This document shows positions 8,376-15,957 of a DNA stretch of 64,000 nt, piece by piece. The position numbers were made by a program, and so were the translations under genes. Position 1 is the first letter of the stretch. The number at the start of each line of letters is the position of its first letter. Source of the DNA: Fervidobacterium sp. (GTDB lineage Bacteria; Thermotogota; Thermotogae; Thermotogales; Fervidobacteriaceae); contig JANZZV010000001.1 in NCBI GenBank assembly GCA_026419195.1, forward strand, positions 310,001 to 374,000, written 5' to 3'. The notes below the pieces were generated by a model. It had not been told where the DNA came from. It worked only from the letters and a program-made list of their open reading frames with translations, and searched no databases.

Positions 8376-9602
8376 ATGATCAAACAAATTACTGATAACG
8401 TGTATTACTACGAAATCCAAGGTGTACGGTCGGTGACAATTGCTTTTATCGTAGGCACCGGTCCTGTTTATGAACCGGAAAATCTATCTGGCATTTCTCA
8501 CTTTATCGAACACGTAGTTTTCAGAAAAACAAAAAAAAGAAACTTAAGACAGATCAAATTGCCGATTGAACAAGTTGGTGGAATACTGAATGCGTGGACT
8601 GATAAGGAAAATACGGTATATTACGCCAAAGTTCCATCAACTTTTTTCAAAACAGCGTTTAATATATTAAGAGAATTGGTCTTCGAACCACTGTTCACAA
8701 GCAGAAACATTGAAATTGAAAGAAAGATCATCCTTCAAGAATACTATTCAGAACAAGAAATACCTGAACAACGGCTGTTCAATAAATTTTTTGAAAATTT
8801 AATAGATGGACCTCATTCAAAACCTATTATCGGAAAAGAGGAAACATTGAAAAGCATAACCTTAGATGACATAGTGCGGTTTCATTCGGAAATGTACACA
8901 CCGTTCAATGTTAAACTGATAATTGCTGGTTACGTTGAGCCAAAGAACTTAAGTGTATTAGAATCGTTGAATTTAACCGATGGATTTAAAACAACAAAAC
9001 ATGAATCAATGCTGAAAGATGGAATAGTTTGTGACAAATTCAGTGAAACTCAGCAAATTCATTTTTTATTTTCTCACGAAGGAGTTTCGTATTCTGATGA
9101 AAATATGCTCTATCCTTTTATGGTATTAAATACTCTACTTGGAAGTGGTATGAGCTCGCTTTTGTTTGAGCACATTAGAGAAAAAAAGGGCCTTGTTTAC
9201 GATATTTCTACAGCAAACATCCAATCAAGAAATTGGGGTGTATTTTCAATATATGCTGCGACTTCGCCTGAAAATGCAGAAAACCTTGTAAAAGAACTCT
9301 TTAACCTTTTGAAAAATTTCAAACTCACCAAGAAGCTGTTTGATTATGGTAAGAAAAGGCTCCTAGGCTCTATTGAACTAATGACCGAGAGCACATCGGC
9401 ACTTACTTCACTTTGTATCCAGTACATAGCGAACGAAGTACAACCGAAAAGTATTGAAGAAATAATCTCTAAAATTCAACAAGTGAGAGAGGAAGACGTT
9501 CAAGAAGCGTTTGAAAAAGTTATAACAGGACAATGGTCATTAACCTATGTAACACCAGCAAAGGAACTGAACATAAGTTATGAAGATTTAAATGTAAAAT
9601 AA
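8376..9602 (+). CDS. M16 family zinc metalloprotease (pitrilysin/insulinase type)
   Basis: 408 residues. The zinc-binding inverted motif HxxEH is present as HFIEH (residues 42-46), followed about 70 residues later by the acidic helix IERKIILQEYYSEQE that supplies the third ligand. The C-terminal half has the second, inactive M16-type domain (GLVYDISTAN with Arg/Tyr region around 265-285). Similar to the YmxG/MlpA-type proteases encoded beside pnp in Bacillus. Soluble, no signal peptide. Probably co-transcribed with pnp; substrate unknown. Confidence 0.93.
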   Translation: MIKQITDNVYYYEIQGVRSVTIAFIVGTGPVYEPENLSGISHFIEHVVFRKTKKRNLRQIKLPIEQVGGILNAWTDKENTVYYAKVPSTFFKTAFNILRELVFEPLFTSRNIEIERKIILQEYYSEQEIPEQRLFNKFFENLIDGPHSKPIIGKEETLKSITLDDIVRFHSEMYTPFNVKLIIAGYVEPKNLSVLESLNLTDGFKTTKHESMLKDGIVCDKFSETQQIHFLFSHEGVSYSDENMLYPFMVLNTLLGSGMSSLLFEHIREKKGLVYDISTANIQSRNWGVFSIYAATSPENAENLVKELFNLLKNFKLTKKLFDYGKKRLLGSIELMTESTSALTSLCIQYIANEVQPKSIEEIISKIQQVREEDVQEAFEKVITGQWSLTYVTPAKELNISYEDLNVK

Positions 9603-9635
9603 ATTTTATACTATACTAAAATGGAGGTGTTGCAC

Positions 9636-11012
9636 TTGTTAACCAATTTTGATGAGTTAACACCAAGACAGATTGTCGAAGAACTTGACAAGTACATAAT
9701 AGGGCAAACCGAGGCGAAAAAAGCAGTCGCAATTGCAATAAGAAATAGAATAAGAAGACAAAGGTTACCTGAAGAATGGAAAAGAGAGGTGGTACCTAAA
9801 AATATTCTCTTGATAGGACCTACCGGTGTTGGAAAAACAGAAATTGCAAGAAGGTTAGCACAAATTTCAGGTTCCCCATTTCTCAAGGTTGAAGCAACAA
9901 AGTTCACGGAAGTTGGCTATGTTGGTAAGAACGTAGATTCTATGATCAGAGATTTGGTAGAAATAGCTGTAAACATGGTTAAACAAGAGAAACTAAAGGA
10001 AGTTGAACCAAAAGTTAAAAAGCTTGTTGAAGAACGTATTCTTGAGGCACTTGTACCAAGTAGAAAGCCAAATGTGCCTTTTGCAAACATATTTGGCTTT
10101 CAACCAGCCCAAGAACAACCTGACGAGTACGAAATAAAAAGAAAAAGGGCAGAACTGCGCAAGAAATTGGAAGATGGCGAGCTTGAAGATATGGAAATAG
10201 AGCTCGATATTGAAATCAGTCAGCCTGGAATAGGATTTGTTGGAATTCCAGACATGGAAGATATGGGCATAGATTTTTCACAAATACTTGGCAACATATT
10301 ACCAAAGCAAAAGAAGAAAAGGCGTATGAAAATTTCCGAGGCAAGAAGAATATTAACACCCATTGAATCTGAGAAGGTAATAGATATGGATGAAGTAATT
10401 CAAAAAGCTCTGAGTTTAGCACAAGAGAGGGGAATCATATTCATAGATGAGCTTGATAAAGTTGCAAGCAGTGGACAAAGTCATGGACCTGATGTGTCAA
10501 GACAAGGCGTTCAAAGAGATTTACTCCCCATAGTAGAGGGCACGACTATAACGACAAGGTACGGACCTGTTAGAACCGATTATATACTATTCATCGGTGC
10601 TGGAGCGTTTCACATGTCGAAACCAACGGACTTAATTCCAGAACTACAAGGCAGGTTTCCAATTCGCGTAGAGCTTGAACCGCTTAAAGAAGATGATTTT
10701 GTAAGAATTTTAACTGAACCAGAGAATGCCTTACTAAAGCAATACAAAGCATTACTTTATACTGAAGGGGTTGAGCTTGAATTCACGCAAGAAGCTATTC
10801 GAGAAATTGCGAAAATTGCCTACAGATTAAATGAAAAAATGGAAAATATAGGGGCTAGAAGATTATACACAGTGGTTGAAAAATTGCTTGAAGATATTAT
10901 GTTCAAGGCTCCTGAAGTGGAAGAGAAGAAAATAGAAATCGATAAAGATTTTGTAGTACAAAAACTTGGAAGTATAATCCAAGATGAGAATCTCTCAGCC
11001 TACATCTTATGA
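9636..11012 (+). CDS. hslU: ATP-dependent protease ATPase subunit HslU (ClpY)
   Basis: AAA+ unfoldase that normally works with the HslV peptidase. TTG 9636 is chosen because GGAGGTG (9622-9628) lies at proper distance and the protein then reads [23 protein letters not shown], as in other HslU proteins; the upstream ATG 9621 lies before that site. Walker A is GPTGVGKTE (residues about 63-70), Walker B is [10 protein letters not shown] (about 265), the I-domain occupies about 105-240, and sensor 2 is [11 protein letters not shown] near the C-terminus. The C-terminus ENLSAYIL resembles the HslU tail that inserts into HslV. Length of 458 residues is normal. No hslV is adjacent. Confidence 0.96.
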
Positions 11013-11045
11013 TCTTTACTTTTCAAAGTGGCAGGGGTGATTTTT

Positions 11046-12356
11046 ATGAAAGGTATAAAGGCTAACAAGATAAAAGAGAGTATCTTAGCTTACTTGTTCT
11101 TACTCCCAGCCCTTGTTGTGCTGTCAATTTTTACATTCTGGCCCATAGGGTTTTCGTTTGTATTGAGCTTTTTTAAATGGGATTTTAGAAACATGCGTAA
11201 TCCATATTTCTACGGACTCGGGAATTATAAGGAAATTCTAAAATTCGATTATCCAGTAAAATTTCCGTTTCACATTGGGCTAATTTATAGTCTTGTTTAT
11301 ATTGCGCTTGCAGTGATATCTGTATTACTGATTTTTAGCTTGTTAAACATAATTAGGAAAAAGAAATTTGAAAAAGGATTTCTTTTTACAACTGTTGTAC
11401 TAATGCTGTATTTTTCTTTAAGAACGGCTATTAATCTTTATTTTGCAATCGCTTTAAACATTATCATTTATATTTCAATAATTCTGGTACTGAAGTTTAG
11501 ATTAATCGATACAAAAATTGTAAATGAACATTTGTGGATTGCTGCGGCAATAGGCATTATTTCGTATATAATTTTCGAGTTCAAATTTCCAGCAGGTTAC
11601 AACAATATCCAGTATGGTATAATTAGTTATTTCATGGACGCATCTGAAAAAAACTTGTTTTTCAAAGCTCTTGTAAACACAACCTATTATGTTATACTTA
11701 CTGTTCCCATTGGTCTAACTTTAGCACTCTTGATAGCTCTTTTGTTAAACAACGAAATAAAATTCAAAGCGGTATTCAGAACAGCATTCTTCATCCCATT
11801 TGTAACATCTTCCGTAGCTGTAGGTTTAATTTGGAAATGGATATACAACGATGACGTGGGATTACTCAATTATATATTCTCAACTGTAGGATTACAACCT
11901 GTAAAGTGGCTAAAAGATGCAAAGTGGACAATACCAACTGTAAGTATAGTGTCAATTTGGAAGAATGTAGGATACAACGCAATGATTTTCTTAGCAGGTT
12001 TACAAAATATCGATACATTCTATTATGAAGCAGCAGAAGTAGACGGTGCAAACAGCTTACAAAAGTTCTTAAAAATTACTTGGCCCTTACTTTCTCCAAC
12101 CACTTTCTTTCTAATAATTGTTTCTGTTATTGGGGCTTTTAAGGTCTTTCAAGAAGTTTTTATCTTATACGATGGATTACCTGGACCTTACGGAAACAGT
12201 GGTATGACAATGGTTTATTATGTTTTTGACCTATTTTACAGGCAACAAAGGATGGGTATAGCAAGTGCCGCTGCCTATTTGTTATTTATAGTTATTCTTG
12301 TATTCACGTTTATACAATATCGCGTTGGCGACAGAGTTGTGGAATACGTGAGCTAA
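11046..12356 (+). CDS. Sugar-type ABC transporter permease, MalF family
   Basis: 436 residues. ATG 11046 follows the ribosome site AGGGGTGA. Helix 1 is at about 12-34. It is followed by an unusual stretch of about four extra hydrophobic segments (about 80-105, 115-140, 143-160, 170-190) before the standard binding-protein-dependent permease domain (about 215-430). The EAA loop that contacts the ATPase reads YYEAAEVDGANSLQKFLKITWPLL. It is one half of an importer with the next gene. No substrate-binding protein or ATPase gene is adjacent, so the substrate cannot be told. The MalF-type layout suggests a sugar. Confidence 0.9.
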   Translation: MKGIKANKIKESILAYLFLLPALVVLSIFTFWPIGFSFVLSFFKWDFRNMRNPYFYGLGNYKEILKFDYPVKFPFHIGLIYSLVYIALAVISVLLIFSLLNIIRKKKFEKGFLFTTVVLMLYFSLRTAINLYFAIALNIIIYISIILVLKFRLIDTKIVNEHLWIAAAIGIISYIIFEFKFPAGYNNIQYGIISYFMDASEKNLFFKALVNTTYYVILTVPIGLTLALLIALLLNNEIKFKAVFRTAFFIPFVTSSVAVGLIWKWIYNDDVGLLNYIFSTVGLQPVKWLKDAKWTIPTVSIVSIWKNVGYNAMIFLAGLQNIDTFYYEAAEVDGANSLQKFLKITWPLLSPTTFFLIIVSVIGAFKVFQEVFILYDGLPGPYGNSGMTMVYYVFDLFYRQQRMGIASAAAYLLFIVILVFTFIQYRVGDRVVEYVS

Positions 12357-12369
12357 AGGGGGGCAAACA

Positions 12370-14535
12370 ATGAAAAGGTTGAGAAAATTAATTATATATA
12401 CACTATTATTAATAGGTACAATCGTTATGATTGCCCCGTTTGCTTGGATGCTTGTAACTTCTTTTAAACTTCCATCTGAAGTAAATTCATGGCCTCCCAA
12501 GTGGACAACAAAGTCGTTCTTAAGTCAAAGAGAAGTTAAAGTTATACCATCAACAGGAACAACATCTTCAGTTAAAGGTTTGAGCTTAAGAGAAGCTTTG
12601 ACCTTTGTTTCAAAGAAAACACATGGACTTGTCCTTTTGGTAAACGATGATCCATTTTACCGTGGCAAATTGACCATACGACTGAAAGGCAAAACCTATG
12701 CGAAGATAGATCCAACTAACTTCTATAATTTTATCAACTCAATAAAACAGCCTACACAGTTTCTCGTAACTGATGATGAGAAAAATAATCCAGAACTTTA
12801 CTTTGAAAAAGTATTGCTAAATTACGTTAGTGGTTCTACACCAGTTTTTAAGAGAGATATTTTCATAGATAGCCTTACAAGTTCTATAGAAACTTTACTC
12901 GACGGAATAGATACAATTCAAACTTTTGGCATAGAAAGAATTCAAAACGAAAATGAAAAAAGTCAATTTATCGCCTTTTTGGATAACAAAGTTGTTGAGT
13001 TACAAGAATTAAAAACAAAAATTCAAAAATTTAAGTCGGGTGAAAGTTTAATATTGAGTATACGTGAACTGGAAGAAATACACAAATTGTTGACAAATTA
13101 CAATTTGCTTTACAGCGGTTCCAACGAAGTTTCTGATAATTACAACAGTGCGATTGCTAATAGCATTTATAAGAATTTTGAGGAAATTGACTTCTTTTTG
13201 AAAATTTATAGTTACTTTGTCAGTGTCCAGAAATTTTTTGTTGACAGAGATATTGTGGCAAAGCCCATGAGTGATCGAGAGAGGATAAACTTATTGATTG
13301 AGAGAACAAAAGATCTTAAAGACCACGAATTAATCAAAAAGATTATATCGAAAAATGGTATGGATAACCTTCTCGATGAATTTGCAAAGGTAATTGATGA
13401 GAATGTTCAAAAGATGCATGGTATTAGTAGTAATGACTTAACAACCTTAAAATCGCTCATCAATGCAATAGTAAACGTGGGGTTTGAGAATAATTTAAAT
13501 GTAGAGGATGAACTAAAAGTATCTTTTAAAAAATTCATGGAAAAATTGGAATCAGTTGTTGGATTCAACCTTACATACACTTCAGCAAAATCTAAATTGG
13601 ATGCGTTTTCTCAAGAATACAAAAGTTCAGACGAATTGTTTAAAACTATCGCTCTAAATATACTCGAACTTCAATCCCTTAGAATGATTTACGAGAATAC
13701 AAAATATGCATGGAAGCTAATTGATGCTCCAAAGTTTGTAAGTGCAGTACTTGTTAAAGAAGGAAAAAATATTGAAATTGTGATGGAAGATGTTAGTCCT
13801 GTATACTTTATGGACGATGGCATAAATAAAGTTCAGGTCAGTTTTTCTACGATGGACATTTTAAAAAATGTGTTTCAAAACTATGCCCTTGCTTGGAATT
13901 CTGCACCATTTGGTAGATATTATTTCAATACGGTCTTTATATCCGTGGTGACGACAATTCTTGAGGTAATAATCTCAGCAATGGCGGCATATGCCTTTTC
14001 TTGGATGAATTTTCCAGGAAAAAGTATTTTGTTCAGTGTTTTTCTTGCTACAATGATGGTACCTGGTGAAGTTTTGCTCGTTCCTAACTTTATTACCATC
14101 ACAAAATTCGGATGGATAGATACGTATTATGCTCTGATAATTCCATGGGTCGTAAGTGTATTTTCAATTTTCTTGATGAGACAACATTTTATGAGTTTGC
14201 CAAGCGAGTTGTTTGACGCAGCAAAAATCGATGGCTGCTCTCATTGGAGGTACTTGTGGCAAATTGTTGTACCGTTGAGTAAGCCTGTCGTAATAACAAG
14301 TGCCCTTTTAAAGTTCGTTGGTAGCTGGAATTCGTTCCTTTGGGTGTTGATAGTCACCAACAGCCCAAAATACCGGACTCTAACTGTTGGACTATCGACG
14401 TTTAGTTCAGAAGTTGGAACACTTTACAATATGTTAATGGCAGCAGCAACCTTCAGTATATTACCTGTTGTGATCATTTTCCTCTTTACACAAAAGTATT
14501 TTGTTAGAGGAATTGCAAGAACAGGACTTAAATAG
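12370..14535 (+). CDS. Sugar-type ABC transporter permease, MalG family, with large extracytoplasmic insertion
   Basis: 721 residues, against about 280 for ordinary MalG-type permeases. Residues 1-45 give the normal helix 1 and loop (MLVTSFKLPSEVNSWPPKW). Residues about 46-500 are an insertion: soluble, Lys/Glu/Asn rich, largely helical or coiled-coil in pattern, no cysteines. The permease then resumes at FQNYALAWNSAPFGRYYFNTVFI (about 502-525) with five helices and the EAA loop LPSELFDAAKIDGCSHWRYLWQIVVPL (610-637). By the topology of MalG the insertion should face outside the membrane. It may serve as a built-in receptor or docking domain, since no binding-protein gene is present; that is inference. 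The frame is open throughout. The first permease lies 13 bases upstream. Confidence 0.9.
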   Translation: MKRLRKLIIYTLLLIGTIVMIAPFAWMLVTSFKLPSEVNSWPPKWTTKSFLSQREVKVIPSTGTTSSVKGLSLREALTFVSKKTHGLVLLVNDDPFYRGKLTIRLKGKTYAKIDPTNFYNFINSIKQPTQFLVTDDEKNNPELYFEKVLLNYVSGSTPVFKRDIFIDSLTSSIETLLDGIDTIQTFGIERIQNENEKSQFIAFLDNKVVELQELKTKIQKFKSGESLILSIRELEEIHKLLTNYNLLYSGSNEVSDNYNSAIANSIYKNFEEIDFFLKIYSYFVSVQKFFVDRDIVAKPMSDRERINLLIERTKDLKDHELIKKIISKNGMDNLLDEFAKVIDENVQKMHGISSNDLTTLKSLINAIVNVGFENNLNVEDELKVSFKKFMEKLESVVGFNLTYTSAKSKLDAFSQEYKSSDELFKTIALNILELQSLRMIYENTKYAWKLIDAPKFVSAVLVKEGKNIEIVMEDVSPVYFMDDGINKVQVSFSTMDILKNVFQNYALAWNSAPFGRYYFNTVFISVVTTILEVIISAMAAYAFSWMNFPGKSILFSVFLATMMVPGEVLLVPNFITITKFGWIDTYYALIIPWVVSVFSIFLMRQHFMSLPSELFDAAKIDGCSHWRYLWQIVVPLSKPVVITSALLKFVGSWNSFLWVLIVTNSPKYRTLTVGLSTFSSEVGTLYNMLMAAATFSILPVVIIFLFTQKYFVRGIARTGLK

Positions 14536-14573: not shown

Positions 14574-14605
14574 GTGCCCATATTTGGGCACTGTTTTTTC
14601 TTTCA
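14574..14605 (+). terminator. Rho-independent terminator after the permease pair
   Basis: Stem GTGCCCA/TGGGCAC (14574-14580 with 14585-14591), loop TATT, then a T-rich tract from 14594. Confidence 0.9.
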
Positions 14606-14682
14606 CTGCTTCACTAAATAACTAGAAAGTGTTAATATAAAATTGCACAAAATATTCCAACAAGCTTGTGGAGGTGATTATC

Positions 14683-15957
14683 ATAGAAAAAAGTAACACC
14701 AGGGAACGTACTCTCAAGCTCTCTGTAATAGAAGGTGCACTTTACACAATAGCGTTTAATGCTACACAAGGATTCGTATATTCAACGTTAGCTCTTTATT
14801 ATGATTTTGATCCTGTGGTGCTTTCTATTGTTGCTGTGCTTCCATCAACTTCACAAATGATTCAGCTTTTTACACCAATGGTTTATCGATTAGTACCATC
14901 CAAAAAGTACGCAATATTCTGGACCTCTTTAATTGCAAGATCTGTGTTTGTGATCATACCTTTGGCGTTGATTATGAACATCAAATCTCACATAATTGTT
15001 GTAATACCATTTATAGTTTTCAACATATTGAACAATGTTGTTGGAAATTTATGGACATCTGCAATGAAAAATATTGTACCGGAAGAAAGAAGAAACACTT
15101 ACTTTGGCTTTCGAAACACGGTTGCCACCTTCGCAGGTTTAAGTGCTTGGATTTTGTATTCATTAATTTTGCAAAACATGGATAGAAAGATTGGTTTAAT
15201 AGTGATCTACTCAGTTTCTTCATTTGTATTTATTCTTACCGCTTATTTTCTATATCTGCATGATATTCCAGATACAAGAGTCATTGACTACAGTATAACA
15301 ACGGTTTTTCAATCTCTGAAAAATCGAAAGTTTTTGAATTTCCTTATCTTTGTATTCATTTGGAATTTCGCAATTCAGTTCGCTGGTCCATTTTTTAGCT
15401 ATTTCGAAGTATCTTATCTTAAAGTTCCTTACTCGTATCTTGGTATTTTGAACATAATTAATTCCCTATTGTCAATGCTTATGTACACATTCTATGGCAA
15501 ATTATCGTCAAAAATTGGTGATAAAAACATGATCAGATATGGTATAACCATCGCTCTTGCTATACCTTTGCTGTATTCTTTAATGACGCCGAGAAACTAC
15601 AGATTTCTACTCCTATTAGATGTAATGATTGCAGCTTTAGCTTGGAGTGCAATAAATTTATCTTACTTCACTTTACTTTTAAAAATAATAGACGAACCCA
15701 GTGAAATATACATATCGATGCATGCAACGATAGCAGGATTGGCATCTTTAATAGCCTCTTACACGGGTGGAAAAACGCTAAGCTTGATAAAAAATTTTCA
15801 ATTTTCAGTCCTCTCCGGTTACAACGTGTTATTTTTAATAGCATTTTTCTTGAGAATTTTTACACTCTACTATTTTACTAAGCTTGACATCGGAGAAAAA
15901 CATAAGAGTATGAGATTCATAGAAATCGCTCAAGTTATCATAACAAGAAGATATTAG
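14683..15957 (+). CDS. Major facilitator superfamily transporter
   Basis: About 425 residues with some twelve hydrophobic segments and a short soluble N-terminus; substrate unknown. The start is odd. A near-perfect ribosome site GGAGGTGAT lies at 14670-14678, but no ATG, GTG or TTG sits at the right distance after it. In frame come ATT 14677, ATC 14680 and ATA 14683. The only upstream standard start, GTG 14668, overlaps the ribosome site itself and lacks its own. I list ATA 14683 as the probable start; GTG 14668 is the alternative. The gene follows a terminator and precedes ribF by about 50 bases. Confidence 0.8.

Follow-up and report, generated by a model that had tools for sequence, protein, structure and literature searches.

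Two adjacent genes, malF* and malG*, were found to encode what would be the two membrane-spanning proteins of a single ABC importer of the CUT1 type, with its remaining parts encoded elsewhere. They lie in a 64,000-nucleotide (64-kb) stretch of DNA from Fervidobacterium sp., referred to here as the window. We read the pair as a phylum-specific variant of the CUT1 importer, in which a large insert in MalG* is apparently non-homologous to the inserts of MalG1 and MalG2. Our leading interpretation, to which we give a probability of about 0.55, is that the importer uses an unlinked binding protein (SBP) and a shared ATPase, and that the insert docks, orients or retains the SBP.

MalF* (436 aa; 11046-12356, + strand) and MalG* (721 aa; 12370-14535, + strand) each have a C-terminal BPD_transp_1 core, matched by PF00528 at residues 223-431 (E 7e-15) and 534-716 (E 3e-23), respectively. 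An alternative upstream GTG start for MalF* is possible at 11028. The EAA loop motifs EAAEVDG and ELFDAAKIDG were found, one in each protein; thus, there are two different permease subunits, each with this core and an EAA loop, as in CUT1 importers. The curated NCBIfam models nearest to the cores were UgpA/UgpE, GlcT/GlcU and MalF/MalG, none of them above its cut-off; the permease pair stayed below the curated UgpABCE scores, with 98.7 of 335 bits for UgpA and 143.9 of 297 bits for UgpE. The solved structures closest to MalG* were SugB, AlgM2 and MalG, aligned over residues 500-721 only. Within the 64-kb window, neither an SBP gene nor an ATPase gene lies next to the pair, as the first-pass annotation had stated, and a candidate for each was located elsewhere in the genome.

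Upstream of malF* lies a conserved neighbor, hslU (9621-11012, + strand). The two genes are separated by 33 nt without a terminator-like site on the + strand, and the order hslU-malF*-malG* is kept in two families (f1 and f2). Because of this short gap and the conserved order, the pair is probably part of one longer housekeeping transcription unit together with hslU. The first-pass annotation had a terminator closing the unit, and a terminator-like hairpin (14574-14599, + strand) with a 7-pair stem, 5 GC and an TGTTTTTTCT tail was indeed seen after malG*, but the unit it closes probably extends upstream to hslU. Directly 3' of this hairpin is an MFS-type transporter gene (14668-15957); among the loci read, only those of the genus and its sister genus have it at this position. 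At 8376-11012 in the window, an M16 peptidase gene precedes hslU, without an adjoining hslV; in family f2, in contrast, an HslV-like gene is directly upstream of hslU.

Pfam and hydropathy analysis agreed with the earlier description of a 721-residue MalG-like protein with a normal TM1 and a five-helix EAA core. MalG* showed one TM segment at residues 7-25, the five core helices and no others. Residues 46-500 contain no TM segment, the highest family-mean 19-residue hydropathy value being 0.65. Between the insert and the EAA loop, which is cytoplasmic, there are three helices, and by helix counting the insert is predicted to be outside the membrane; the outward orientation proposed before was, therefore, borne out, and a cytoplasmic placement was not supported. 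MalF* has about ten TM segments, and the four or so extra segments that had been noted after TM1 were found between the canonical TM1 and TM2 (79-97, 111-129, 131-149 and 163-181), both in the sequence and in the family mean. Because these extra segments are even in number, the topology of the MalF* core is unchanged.

The insert itself (MalG* residues 46-496; 12505-13857, + strand) is predicted to be a periplasmic domain with a strand-containing base formed from both ends and a helical arm. AlphaFold2 modeling with 50 homologues gave a mean pLDDT of 89.4 and a pTM of 0.76, which, with the hydropathy profile, upheld the earlier view of a soluble, helix-rich insertion. Strands at both ends with long helices between them were seen in this model and likewise in the full-length MalG* model. 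As the MalG* core was poorly predicted in the latter, the placement of the base over the permease mouth is something that we infer. The C-terminal border lies at about residue 496-500, followed by the canonical 'NY' loop element (N504-Y505); borders were set by eye from the NY motif, automatic pairwise alignment across the insert being too noisy. Searches with the insert alone did not detect a known domain: Foldseek gave no match in PDB structures (best E 0.44) or in BFVD viral models (best E 0.04, probability 0.25), Pfam gave nothing consistent and NCBIfam nothing. PDB sequence profiles provided no accepted match, only weak helical ones (best E 0.007; nucleoporin, apolipophorin), which were dismissed as composition effects. 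With the full MalG* model, the real Foldseek matches were to the permease core only.

Conservation differs within the insert and between the insert and the core. The mean majority fraction was 0.53 and 0.51 at the two ends of the insert, which carry the conserved motifs DDPF-RG and AP-FV, vs 0.36 in the helical middle. Among members of the genus and its sister genus, identity is 49-58% in the MalG* insert compared to 85-93% in the MalG* core, and 37-50% in the four-helix insert of MalF* compared to 89-94% in the MalF* core. Both inserts are fast-evolving additions on slow cores. The MalG* insert also varies in length in the family, from 434 to 530 aa. A 566-aa paralogue, MalG566, has an insert about 150 residues shorter that is homologous to the first half of the MalG* insert (hhalign probability 98.5), which is consistent with a design of a base plus a variable arm. 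MalG566 belongs to a paralogous cassette, SBP-SBP-MalF-MalG(566 aa)-SBP, at L122:1950-8752 (G058:C15), and further second matches of MalF*/MalG like this cassette were seen in G061, G062, G063 and G065.

An insert profile matched 100 of 103 Thermotogota genomes. The match in G047 (E 5e-4, two stops, a 300-residue frame) was counted as spurious, leaving 99 of 103, and conservation at this level across the phylum excludes chance. There is one full-size copy in each of the 99 genomes; extra weak matches in family f5 are mostly of the 566-aa paralogue type. In a scan of genome contigs with a profile built from ten closer sequences, all four loci found were from Thermotogota (those named being Fervidobacterium, Thermosipho and a Thermotogota MAG), which suggests that the insert is absent outside this phylum. 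The best explanation is that the MalF*G* importer is ancestral and single-copy in Thermotogota. The malG* frame was shortened or split in two at L052:9785-11701 (G030), L065:9577-11727 (G015) and L062:8926-11012 (G031).

A candidate for the unlinked SBP came from gene order in genus g7, where an SBP gene stands head-to-head with malF* (loci L044, L045, L046 and L062). We take the g7 genomes to be Thermotoga, in which the T. maritima orthologues would presumably be TM0595, TM0596 and TM0598; nothing on TM0595-TM0598, ligand data included, was found in the literature searched. The source genome encodes an orphan SBP of 420 aa (G000:C1:132992-134254) that is 68% identical to the g7 SBP. It belongs to the SBP_bac_8 and SBP_bac_1 families, that is, to the Family 1/8 SBPs, as suits a candidate partner. 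Its nearest PDB entry is the sugar-binding protein 7c14 (E 1e-43), and its nearest curated model, UgpB, was below cut-off (105.6 of 411 bits). The signal sequence has no lipobox cysteine, and the SBP is apparently secreted rather than a lipoprotein.

Loss of the SBP was compared with loss of the permeases among the 103 genomes. The SBP is absent from eight, MalF* from six and the insert from four. All four genomes without the insert (G025, G047, G082 and G083, from three separate lineages, g9, g17 and g32) also lack MalF* and the SBP. Co-loss of insert and SBP was significant by Fisher's test with all genomes (1.6e-5), with the 82 complete genomes (2.9e-6) and with genera as units (4.7e-4). 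Of the other four genomes without an SBP orthologue, G040, G054 and G102 are incomplete or somewhat contaminated, and G003, which belongs to the same genus, is complete and has an intact MalF*G*, is a real exception. Also in this genus, the MalF* frame is broken in G007 and the SBP of G008 is split at residue 231; importer decay in some strains or sequencing errors could each explain the defects in G003, G007 and G008. SBP identity in the genus is 89-94% vs about 50% for the insert, and this difference gives no hint of a large, tightly co-evolving interface.

The search for an MsmK-type ATPase likewise yielded one candidate in the source genome. Exactly one ATPase (G000:C1:106259-107365) passed the UgpC cut-off, with 520 vs 432 bits; it carries OB_MalK and TOBE domains and has no permease neighbor. 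Its orthologue was found in 96 of 103 genomes, including the four that lost the importer, and in 11 of 14 f11 genomes it is no more than about 9 kb away from malG*. Multitask ATPases have been described (PMC7658222). Retention of the ATPase in importer-less genomes is what a shared ATPase predicts. Since those four genomes kept the ATPase, the co-loss of the SBP is specific and not general genome decay. This orphan MsmK/UgpC-type ATPase most likely serves MalF*G* as well as other sugar importers.

The first-pass annotation had called the arrangement a variant, under-described importer layout. The layout was published in 2008: Noll et al. described Thermotogales MalG1 and MalG2 in which TM1 and TM2 are set apart by a hydrophilic region about 500 residues long that was unlike any known protein and had no known function at publication (PMC2246101). 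MalG* resembles these proteins in being a CUT1 MalG-type subunit with a large TM1-TM2 insert and no ATPase gene in the operon. The earlier view was partly right, since the MalG* insert differs from theirs and sits in a different transporter, and no description of it was found. Comparison with MalG1 of the source genome (804 aa; L001:3547-5961) did not reveal homology of the inserts (hhalign probability 17%, 48 columns, 4% identity). In addition, the MalG* insert precedes the NY element (FQNYALAW), whereas the MalG1 insert follows it (TFQNYIDLL), and MalG1 has MalE and MalF genes linked to it, the MalF being E. coli-like. A third case is an OppC-type permease of the peptide-importer family (823 aa; G000:C13:31279-33750, L002:4279-6750), in which about 550 residues separate TM1 from the core and which has an SBP_bac_5 gene upstream. 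Its insert is unrelated to that of MalG* (hhalign probability 0.3%) and, in sequence, to that of MalG1, and it was present in 18 of 61 relatives, fewer genomes than MalG*. The TM1-loop insert layout is, thus, known and recurrent in Thermotogota, while the MalG* insert and its system appear to be undescribed in the literature searched.

More distant systems also share features with the pair. Like E. coli MalFGK2-MalE, it has a two-permease core with EAA loops, and an SBP and a MalK-type ATPase are candidates here. E. coli MalF has a periplasmic P2 domain of about 180 aa and different make in the equivalent loop, which touches MalE directly (PMC3150292). Here, in contrast, the extra domain of 450 aa is in MalG*, and what MalF* carries in its place is four additional helices. 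Among NCBIfam models and PDB structures, the UgpABCE and SugABC-LpqY CUT1 importers include the closest relatives of the permease cores and of the SBP, but the equivalog cut-offs for permeases and SBP were not reached and the MalG* insert has no counterpart in the solved relatives, the alignment beginning at residue 500.

By analogy with MalF-P2, the insert is most likely a periplasmic scaffold for docking or retention of the SBP. It would extend from MalG's first periplasmic loop, with a conserved base from its two ends above the permease mouth and a variable helical arm reaching outward. The role of the insert would be to dock, orient or retain the SBP, a soluble protein, as P2, an unrelated domain, does in the partner subunit; the base would do the work and the arm would serve as a spacer or catcher. 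The partners would be the SBP and ATPase named above, and the substrate may be an oligosaccharide or glycerol-phosphate-like. Besides the topology, the gene order in g7, the co-loss with the SBP and the retained ATPase, this explanation is favored by the position of MalG566, with its shorter homologous insert, among three SBP genes and by the better conservation of the base compared to the arm. The slow SBP, the fast arm and the G003 exception call for caution on docking.

The main rival is that the arm is a structural element or tether, which spaces or anchors the transporter in the wide periplasm beneath the outer sheath (toga) of Thermotogota, or contacts the sheath or cell wall, in either case without specific SBP contact. 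We consider this tentative and clearly less probable than docking. In one genome, three different permeases carry, at the same loop, helix-rich inserts of 450-550 aa that are unrelated to one another, and this recurrence suggests that the envelope, and not a single ligand, creates the need. The fast arm and variable insert length beside an SBP nearly invariant in the genus also fit a tether. On the other hand, the base with its motifs is conserved and the majority of this genome's permeases have no insert. An improbable alternative is that the insert acts as a platform, for regulation or interaction, that serves a non-SBP periplasmic partner such as an envelope protein or an enzyme. The insert has no known fold or family, and malF*G* sits in a housekeeping gene order rather than among catabolic genes (hslU upstream and, in several families, miaA, hfq, hflX and metK-type genes downstream, named from sequence starts). 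When the co-loss profiles of insert, MalF*, SBP and ATPase were compared, however, the co-lost partner candidate was the SBP.

The first-pass annotation had proposed that the insertion could replace or dock a solute receptor. Replacement, with the insert binding substrate itself, is very unlikely. The lack of an adjoining SBP gene in the window and the pair without an SBP orthologue in G003 would fit it, but there is a candidate cognate SBP that is lost together with MalG*, and other insert-bearing permeases have linked SBPs (MalE1, SBP_bac_5 and the three around MalG566); it was rejected on these two grounds. Furthermore, the insert fold was not SBP-like in Foldseek and had no Pfam SBP match. 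Because the SBP gene is head-to-head with malF* in one genus and absent wherever MalG* is absent, the insert would supplement the SBP and not replace it, and docking is the preferred part of the earlier proposal.

A confidently predicted domain of 450 residues, found in nearly the whole phylum and with no solved match, points to a core transport function that is seemingly unassigned. This analysis names a four-gene set for it (SBP, MalF*, MalG* and a shared ATPase) that is scattered over the genome. MalF*G* is also a natural system for studying the role that extra periplasmic domains have in importers of type I. Why unrelated inserts recur at one loop is a separate question. It is possible, though doubtful at present, that Thermotogota independently, and more than once, built large, helix-rich, new-fold periplasmic domains into this loop of unrelated ABC permeases (MalG*, MalG1 and OppC) that capture or guide free SBPs in a sheath-enclosed periplasm, of which the MalG* domain would be ancestral and phylum-defining.
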